This document shows, piece after piece, positions 12,126 through 14,543 of a stretch of DNA of 64,000 nt. How positions within the stretch are numbered: the stretch's first letter is position 1; the number at the start of each line of letters is the position of its first letter. The notes under the pieces are model-generated. The model was not told where the DNA came from. It did no database searches and saw only the letters and a list, made by a program, of their open reading frames with translations. The translations under genes were made by a program, and so were the position numbers. Source of the DNA: Hyphomonadaceae bacterium (GTDB lineage: Bacteria > Pseudomonadota > Alphaproteobacteria > Caulobacterales > Aquidulcibacteraceae); assembly GCA_019636095.1 (NCBI GenBank), contig JAHBYF010000005.1:1-64000 (forward strand), in the 5' to 3' direction.

Positions 12126-12251
12126 GCGTGCAGTTCGCAAACATTGCGGCATCGAAATCTTTCGTCGCAATCAAGCCCTGAAATCCGCCCACCAGCGACA
12201 TGGAACTCGCCTCGATGCTGCGCGTTCACAAGCGCTGCACGTCACACGCGA

Positions 12252-13772
12252 ATGGAGGGCGCCATTCCTAAGCTCACCGCTGACTCACTCGAGTCCGATC
12301 TGAAACTGTCCGACCGCGGCGCCGCTGACGGCGCGAAAAACATCCCTGGCTCTCAGGACAGCCGCTTATCTGCCGTCGAAGCGATGGTGGTGAGCCGTAT
12401 TGAGGGCGCGATCTCGCAGAAATCCAACGAAATTCTAGGCGTTGGCTCGGGGCAGGATTTCACCACGCTGCCGCAAGACCTCGAGTCCATGGCTACCGAG
12501 CCGCAGACCATTCTCACCGGCTTCCGCGCCAAGAAGGCGCGGGCGCAAGCCGCTCTCGGCCTCGAACTCAACGCTGCGCAGACCGACTACGCGCGCGCCT
12601 ATCGCGACTACCGGGCCTTCCGCATCCAGCACCAGCTCACCGAAACCGAGCCGAGCTACGACACTGTGTTCTGGCGCAAGGTGTTCTTCCTGGCGTTGCT
12701 CTTCATCGTCGAAGTCGCGGCCAACGGCTGGATGATCGGTCAAGCCAGCCCCGGCGGCTTGGTGCAGGGCTGGAGCACGGCGCTGATGATCTCGGTGCTC
12801 GTCGTGCTTACGGGGTCGCTGCTTGGGGCAGGACCTTGGCGTTATCTCAACTATCGCGGCGCTGACGGCGCAGGCTTCAAGCACCGCTTGTGGGCCGTGC
12901 CTGCGCTAGTGGTGGGCAGTGCGTTGTTGCTGCTGTTTGCCTTCTATATCGCACACTATCGCTATGAATTGTCCCACAGTTCGCTTGACGCGCCGGTTCC
13001 CGACAACATCCTCACCTCCGTAATGACGCAGCCGTTCCAGCCGTTTCAACAATTGGAGTCGCTGCTCCTTTTCATCATCGCGCTCCTGATCGGGATTTTC
13101 GCAATTCATCGCGGCGCGCACTGGGATGATCCGTATCCTGGCTACGGTCCGCGTCACCGGCGTATGGAAGAGGCGCGCGAGCGTTCGCAGGACATTGCGC
13201 AACGTTTGGCGGAAGATATCGACATCGCCAAAGCCGACGCTGATCGCGCACTCAACGAGATCAACGTGAAGAGCACGGGCGCGGTCGCTGCCTTGCGCCA
13301 AGCCATTGCGCGCACGCAGGACAATGCTGCGATCTGGGATTTTACCGCCGCTGAAATCCTGGCCGAGGGGCGCGACGCCATAGAGATCTATCGCGATGCG
13401 AACCGTGAGGCGCGCTCCTCCAGTCCGCCGGCCTATTTCCAGCGCGACGCGTTCGATGACGCTGAGCCGTCGTCATCAGCTGAAATCCTCGAAACTCTGA
13501 CCACCGCTTTCGGTCGCGCCACCTCGAACATCACAGCCTGCAAGAGCCAGTTGGCGGGCGCACGTGCGCAGCTTGAGGCCGAATATCATTCCTTCTATGA
13601 CGACGAACTCACGCCGTTCCTGAAGAACATTGAAAACGCCGCCACCATCAACGTGCGTGGCGAATTCGGCGATGTGAAAAAGCTTCCATCCATCGAGATC
13701 GAGGCCGAAGACGACAGCGAAGAAGAACCTGCGGAAGCTGTCTCATTCCGTCATCGGCGGAGGTCGCGCTAG
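12252..13772 (+). CDS. Four-TM coiled-coil membrane protein of an unnamed two-gene module
   Basis: The protein has 506 residues from the ATG at 12252; an upstream TTG at 12144 adds sequence that does not look coding. A charged helical region (about 60-130) leads to four membrane segments (about 140-270). Segment 1 contains the acidic FIVEVAANGW, and after segment 3 comes AHYRYEL. A long charged, probably coiled-coil tail follows and ends in an acidic stretch with a basic HRRRSR terminus. The layout recalls a group of uncharacterised bacterial membrane proteins that share the HYR motif, but I cannot name it. The next gene begins on the very next base. Confidence 0.75.
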   Translation: MEGAIPKLTADSLESDLKLSDRGAADGAKNIPGSQDSRLSAVEAMVVSRIEGAISQKSNEILGVGSGQDFTTLPQDLESMATEPQTILTGFRAKKARAQAALGLELNAAQTDYARAYRDYRAFRIQHQLTETEPSYDTVFWRKVFFLALLFIVEVAANGWMIGQASPGGLVQGWSTALMISVLVVLTGSLLGAGPWRYLNYRGADGAGFKHRLWAVPALVVGSALLLLFAFYIAHYRYELSHSSLDAPVPDNILTSVMTQPFQPFQQLESLLLFIIALLIGIFAIHRGAHWDDPYPGYGPRHRRMEEARERSQDIAQRLAEDIDIAKADADRALNEINVKSTGAVAALRQAIARTQDNAAIWDFTAAEILAEGRDAIEIYRDANREARSSSPPAYFQRDAFDDAEPSSSAEILETLTTAFGRATSNITACKSQLAGARAQLEAEYHSFYDDELTPFLKNIENAATINVRGEFGDVKKLPSIEIEAEDDSEEEPAEAVSFRHRRRSR

Positions 13773-14543
13773 ATGCGCCGCGAACGCGAAGCCGCCAACC
13801 GCCGCTACGCAGGCTTCACGGCCGGCGTTCTGTTCAGCGTGCTGGCGCTGACAGCTACCGTTTGGCTGTTGCGTCCAGCTGATCTCGACGCGGCGACCTT
13901 ATGCCCAACGAACAGGCCGCTTGCAGGCCACACGGTCGTGATTGTCGATCGTACTGATCGCTGGACGCAGGCGATGGGCGCAGCGCTCACCCAGTTGGTC
14001 GAGAACGCCCAGCGCGACACAGACAAATACGAAAAGTTTTCGATCGTTTCGCTCGATGCAAACCAATCGGTGCATCCGCTGTTTTCGATCTGCAATCCTG
14101 GTCAGCCGACGTTCTGGTCGGACCTCTATCGTGGCCGGCGATACACCACCCGTGATTTCGAGCAGCGTTTTGTCGGCGCCGCCGAGCGTGTGATCGAAGA
14201 GGTGCGCGAACCTTCCGAGGCCCGCTCAAGCCCGATCATCGAATACGTGCATCGTTGGCTCGGCAGTGACGACTTCAACGCAAACGTTCCGCATCGTCGG
14301 CTCATCCTGGTGTCGGATATGCGCCAGAACTCGCAGCTCTACAGTATCTACACAGGCGCGGAAGATCAGCTCGGAGACGTGGTGGCTCGACAGTTCGGGC
14401 CCGCGGCGGAGGGTGTTTCGTTCGATGTCTATTTCGTCGCCCATGGCCGCGACCATAATGTCAGCGAAGACGAGGTTCGCGCCGCCTGGGACCATGCCTT
14501 TGGAAGGATTGGCGCTGATTATTCCTGGCGACAGATAAGCTAG
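13773..14543 (+). CDS. Membrane-anchored vWA-like protein, partner of the upstream gene
   Basis: The 256-residue protein has an N-terminal anchor (about 14-34) and an exported domain. That domain starts with the strand HTVVIVDRTDRW and later has the strand RRLILVSDMRQNS. These resemble the first and fourth strands of von Willebrand A domains, with DRTD in place of the usual metal-site DxSxS. The segments CNPG and SPIIEYV lie between. The ATG directly abuts the upstream TAG, so translation is coupled. The vWA assignment is from strand pattern and motif position only. Confidence 0.7.
   Translation: MRREREAANRRYAGFTAGVLFSVLALTATVWLLRPADLDAATLCPTNRPLAGHTVVIVDRTDRWTQAMGAALTQLVENAQRDTDKYEKFSIVSLDANQSVHPLFSICNPGQPTFWSDLYRGRRYTTRDFEQRFVGAAERVIEEVREPSEARSSPIIEYVHRWLGSDDFNANVPHRRLILVSDMRQNSQLYSIYTGAEDQLGDVVARQFGPAAEGVSFDVYFVAHGRDHNVSEDEVRAAWDHAFGRIGADYSWRQIS

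Follow-up and report, generated by a model that had tools for sequence, protein, structure and literature searches.

What do two abutting membrane-protein genes, here called A and B, do in a Hyphomonadaceae bacterium (Aquidulcibacteraceae), and do they belong to any system already described? The genes lie in the window, the 64,000-nucleotide stretch analysed here (positions 1 to 64,000 of contig JAHBYF010000005.1, assembly GCA_019636095.1), and the initial annotation had read them as an unnamed two-gene module outside any recognised family, with a signalling or defence machine as the suggested function. The absence of a known family stands: searches of both proteins against Pfam, NCBIfam, PHROGs and PADLOC gave nothing meaningful, and the pair is outside every described kind of system tested, which in itself makes no claim on function. 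With a probability of about 0.45, somewhat short of even odds, we propose that a modular envelope machine, hitherto undescribed, has A-B as its conserved core and that its full form would join a Zorya-like motor to a periplasmic nuclease directed against incoming DNA.

Both genes are present at the coordinates given in Table 1 and, as had been claimed, follow each other with zero spacer and are made together; in many relatives, the junction is an overlap of a few bases. An in-frame TTG lies upstream of A, at 12144; the annotated ATG is favoured over it as the start because the N-terminus that it yields, MEGAIPKL, is kept in close relatives. Codon comparison with five relatives gave dN/dS values of 0.07-0.35 for A and 0.06-0.24 for B (rough values, with dS close to saturation), indicating that both are real proteins under purifying selection.

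Table 1. Features of the A-B pair in the window (TM, transmembrane; vWA, von Willebrand factor A).
Feature	Position	Strand	Basis and remarks
Gene A	12252..13772	+	506 aa; ATG 12252, TAG 13770-13772; predicted inner-membrane protein with four TM helices between long helical arms
A N-terminal long helix, residues 66-126	12447..12629	+	AlphaFold model; predicted on the cytoplasmic side
A TM1, residues 140-165	12669..12746	+	Model; carries E154
A TM2, residues 169-198	12756..12845	+	Model; G169, G173, A177, R197 conserved
A TM3, residues 208-242	12873..12977	+	Model; AHYR at 234-237
A TM4, residues 268-289	13053..13118	+	Model; followed by conserved D293-P-Y-P
A C-terminal long helices, residues 298-387 and 409-477	13143..13682	+	Model; predicted on the cytoplasmic side; Y380-R381 conserved
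A/B junction TAG/ATG	13770..13775	+	Spacer 0
Gene B	13773..14543	+	256 aa; ATG 13773, TAG 14541-14543; vWA protein with TM anchor
B N-terminal TM anchor, residues about 12-33	13806..13871	+	Model and sequence; no acidic residue
B vWA domain, residues 52-255	13926..14537	+	Model and Foldseek; predicted periplasmic

The AlphaFold model of A (mean pLDDT 86.8) has four membrane-length helices with long helices on both sides, and thus bears out the initial description of four TMs between N- and C-terminal helical arms with an AHYR motif. Conservation of that motif is limited to A234 and R237. Across 54 relatives, the near-invariant residues of A are E154 and R237, both within membrane helices (53/53 and 52/53 of the ungapped relatives, respectively), and D293. 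The arms are predicted to be cytoplasmic, with a weak loop-charge test, the loops being short and poor in charges. No solved fold was matched by the A model in Foldseek, and comparison of A with the PDB by sequence returned coiled-coil noise only. Membership of the MotA/TolQ/ZorA group was rejected by hhalign (E 0.014 against ZorA and 0.28 against TolQ, a range that also holds the comparison with gene C, described below) and by Foldseek. Also rejected was DUF4407 (PF14362), prompted by a weak match of one relative that covered the coil only, outside the TM region (hhalign E 0.02-0.06). Since A has no recognised fold, its role is one that we infer.

The model of B (pLDDT 87.8) consists of an N-terminal TM helix and a vWA fold. 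With this model, Foldseek gave 71 PDB matches at E<=0.001, the best being vWA proteins (E 1.2e-6, probability 1.00), and BatB (3ibs_B) was matched at E 9.7e-6, so the vWA-like domain noted at the outset is borne out, with its placement on the outer side predicted; by sequence, B matched no vWA Pfam family. The DRTD and SDM motifs singled out in the initial annotation are the ends of two strands bearing MIDAS-like residues (D59, T61, D182), to which S153 is added. Position 61 is T or S and position 153 S or T among relatives, and D59, T/S61, S153, D182, C44, C107 and W239 are near-invariant across 54 of them. A full MIDAS (DxSxS...T...D) is absent from B, the third position of DxSxS being variable, and there is no conserved Asp in the TM helix, D39 lying outside it.

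The pair is kept together across genomes. Among 61 genomes (its own and 60 relatives), A was found in 36 and B in 36, adjacent wherever contigs permit, and nearly all homologs found in relatives, class genomes and plasmids have A and B as neighbours. A gene-neighbourhood survey had been set beforehand as a check on the module, with rare adjacency or a known family for both genes as the contrary outcome; the homologs proved to be almost always adjacent. The window-type copy is present in about 11 of 30 genus genomes. Its flanking genes are kept at five loci (L062-L064, L066, L086) and not at five others (L065, L067, L081, L083, L084), and A-B stay paired where flanking genes differ. These flanking genes read as housekeeping, from names read from sequence, not from family search.

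In the window, no motor, nuclease or defence gene lies close to the pair, and a ZorB next to a ZorA is absent from its neighbourhood. The genome has SNase (staphylococcal-type nuclease) genes elsewhere, and ordinary TolQ, ExbB and MotA-type genes, for none of which a link to A-B was found; one ZorA2 model (PDLC00635) gives no match in it. It also carries a second, more distant A-B copy (G000:C8:184198-186127, L077), the B of which is frameshifted. The genes around this second copy (inositol monophosphatase, GDPD) form a conserved core neighbourhood, and the copy is internally deleted in genomes G024 and G028 (L085, L087), so that in all three genomes a broken second copy stands alongside a window-type copy. 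Phage records searched with a relative of A gave no match.

Beyond these relatives, the pair occurs in four operon forms. A-B alone accounts for nearly all Caulobacterales copies, the window included. Outside Caulobacterales, most Alphaproteobacteria that have the pair carry it at the start of a four-gene operon, A-B-C-D, found on Rhizobium, Sinorhizobium, Microvirga and Paracoccus plasmids, in other Alphaproteobacteria genomes, and as complete sets on the three contigs classed as viral that carry C, which may be misassigned bacterial DNA. In a third form, an OmpA protein precedes A'-B' on Pantoea, Paraburkholderia and Aliarcobacter plasmids and in gammaproteobacterial genomes. The homology of A' to A rests mainly on the B' neighbour and the helix layout, because the hhalign match of gamma A' to A is weak (E 9e-4, probability 22%). 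At these loci (L163-L167, L187-L189; gamma-, beta- and epsilonproteobacteria), the OmpA protein is a lipoprotein, with an unknown domain after OmpA. In the fourth form (L168, 8836-10994; L124, 6868-9115), the gene directly after A-B encodes a VirD4-type coupling protein, and a serine recombinase gene lies in the vicinity. Both loci are apparent integrative elements with a recombinase of the large serine type; a type III restriction-like gene is also present in L168. At a further locus (L123, 6444-8189), two genes come after A-B: one of 268 aa, unrelated, and one for a membrane protein of 301 aa that shows weak similarity to C (E 4.5e-4), perhaps a diverged motor form. Two related genomes (L126, L136) have a very large protein past D, of 1448 and 1286 aa; the one tested had no Pfam or PADLOC match. 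The two-gene module initially described therefore holds as the minimal form, but the larger modular family with its A-B-C-D operons had been missed.

In a tree of A+B rooted by midpoint, the A-B-C-D loci group in one clade (support 0.57), together with L093, which has A-B only; the stand-alone Caulobacterales loci, with the window, form a separate one (support 0.70). A-B is also the form found on the deepest branches, and the tree thus suggests an older A-B to which C-D was added, the alternative being loss of C-D.

C and D resemble a motor pair. The membrane helices of C match the ZorA pore helices in hhalign with E 1.9e-5 and 78% probability (comparable to ZorA against TolQ, 8.5e-5), a likeness that rests on this TM-only comparison because the PADLOC ZorA matches of C are mostly coil bias; a PDB search with C returned uninformative coiled-coil noise. 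A profile of C matched 10 of 385 class genomes, nine of which also have A-B, the tenth (G073) having C on a 4.5 kb contig where no A-B was found. The same profile had no match in the window's genome and its 60 relatives. With a profile confined almost entirely to A-B genomes, C is nearly specific to the A-B-C-D system. D has one TM helix, is MotB/ZorB-like and usually bears an OmpA domain; one member matched ZorB at 1.5e-27, as well as OmpA. At the position where MotB and ZorB have Asp, the D helix has Glu in 23/23. From these sequence features, C-D would act as an ion-driven motor.

Nucleases are closely associated with these operons. In four of the 23 A-B-C-D loci, an SNase is fused to the C-terminal end of D (L127, L134, L135, L172), and nine others have it as an adjacent gene at less than 500 bp (L069, L072, L073, L074, L075, L131, L169, L194, L195), most of these genes with a signal-peptide-like N-terminus. 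In one locus (L170), the SNase lies 1.2 kb off, and in another (L171, 5391-7196) an HNH nuclease (GmrSD_C) is fused to the MotB/OmpA-like D, apparently in place of the thermonuclease fusion. A nuclease is thus fused or within 1.2 kb in 15/23 loci, and about 8/23 have none close by. The nuclease end of D is predicted to face the periplasm. SNase genes are otherwise rare: against a background of 29 SNase matches in about 56 Mb (11 A-B-C-D genomes), 7 of 11 operons have an SNase within 1.3 kb, for a Poisson expectation of about 0.04, with G172 excluded from the counts and the distance picked after the pattern was seen. Among stand-alone loci, L091 is the only one with an SNase gene, directly upstream of the pair.

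Defence genes also flank some A-B-C-D loci: a type III CRISPR Cas10 (L128), an OLD/GajA-like gene (L133) and AbiEii (L126). With uncontrolled sampling, L128 and L133 having been chosen for large flanking ORFs, these neighbours are at most suggestive of a defence role. The initial defence reading thus fares unevenly: at the window it finds housekeeping flanks and no C in the genome, but the nucleases and some of the neighbours favour it indirectly for A-B-C-D. A defence role of the window copy itself is putative.

Among described systems, Zorya is close in several respects. The A-B-C-D operon has a nuclease, a ZorA-like C with a long coiled-coil tail and a ZorB-like D that usually bears an OmpA domain for peptidoglycan binding; Zorya defence is reported to depend on ZorB D24, on the ZorA tail and on binding to peptidoglycan (PMC11890865). 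Unlike in Zorya, the nuclease would be on the periplasmic side and is frequently fused to D; Zorya also lacks A and B, and the window pair has no motor. PADLOC found no ZorC, ZorD, ZorE, ZorF or ZorG among selected operon neighbours, the nuclease being carried on D instead. Proteins with a vWA domain that are coupled to TolQ-like motors have been described, with further such systems expected, and these transducers have a conserved Asp in the TM helix (PMC12204202). B resembles them as a TM-anchored, predicted periplasmic vWA protein, the fullest form of which adjoins a TolQ/MotA-like gene, but its TM helix has no Asp, a separate MotB-like D is present, and A is not TolQ-like. With the 5:2 motors of the MotAB/TolQR/ExbBD type (MotAB relatives are reviewed in PMC12505986), the operon shares the C pore helices and a D with a TM acidic residue and an OmpA domain, but Glu replaces Asp in D, and A and B are not motor subunits by the tests run. 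BatB and other vWA proteins share the fold of B, which differs in its partial MIDAS and its partner. In open-licence papers, we found no description of A, nor of a thermonuclease fusion to a MotB-like protein.

In the machine that we propose, A would lie in the inner membrane with its long helical arms in the cytoplasm, and B would be anchored beside it with the vWA binding domain in the periplasm. The MIDAS-like face of B would bind a cue or a partner in the periplasm, an event that A would relay to its cytoplasmic arms. C-D would be a peptidoglycan-anchored, ion-driven motor of the MotAB/ZorAB type that supplies force, and D or the next gene would present the nuclease in the periplasm, where phage or conjugative DNA would be cut during entry; the logic would be Zorya-like, with the nuclease turned outward. 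The target of the full form is probably incoming DNA. The window copy, a stand-alone A-B, most likely retains the sensing and transducing step only. On a more tentative footing than the proposal as a whole, A-B-C-D with its nuclease may represent a new class of immune machine, with a periplasmic nuclease and A-B as sensor core, of which the window pair would be the minimal version.

Other readings of the pair deserve weight. The stand-alone A-B may be a housekeeping envelope complex, for stress sensing or for peptidoglycan or outer-membrane tethering, that has no part in defence and was borrowed by the A-B-C-D operons. The separation of the two clades in the tree, the conserved core neighbourhood of the second copy and the retention of the window flanking genes in close relatives all speak for it; nevertheless, for a core function, presence in only a minority of genus genomes and a second copy broken in three of them would be odd, and the SNase of L091 sits next to a stand-alone pair, so we regard this as possible but doubtful. 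It is improbable that A and B themselves are a two-part ion motor, a TolQ-like A pentamer around a vWA B dimer as in PMC12204202: they do share the layout of one polytopic and one TM-anchored vWA protein, and E154 and R237 are near-invariant in the A membrane helices, but the B helix has no acidic residue, A matches neither ZorA, C, TolQ nor a solved fold, and the motor, where present, is C-D.

Equally improbable is a role of A-B in DNA transfer, with the pair as accessory to a coupling protein of conjugation. The VirD4-type gene that follows A-B, with the serine recombinase, would fit such a role, but it is seen at two distant loci only and not in the window, in the window's relatives or in the A-B-C-D operons. 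The initial description of A as channel-like is unsupported, since neither a fold nor a family was matched. The four TM helices of A, with Glu and Arg inside the membrane, could be read as an ion channel that B gates, but A has no sequence or fold likeness to any channel, which makes this the least probable of the readings considered.

A and B thus went unrecognised by the curated protein, phage and defence libraries used, and the nuclease-fused operons now provide a defined test set for experiments. If the proposed envelope machine is real, a defence nuclease would act in the periplasm, ahead of the arrival of DNA in the cytoplasm, and ZorAB-type motors could be coupled to outward-facing nucleases.
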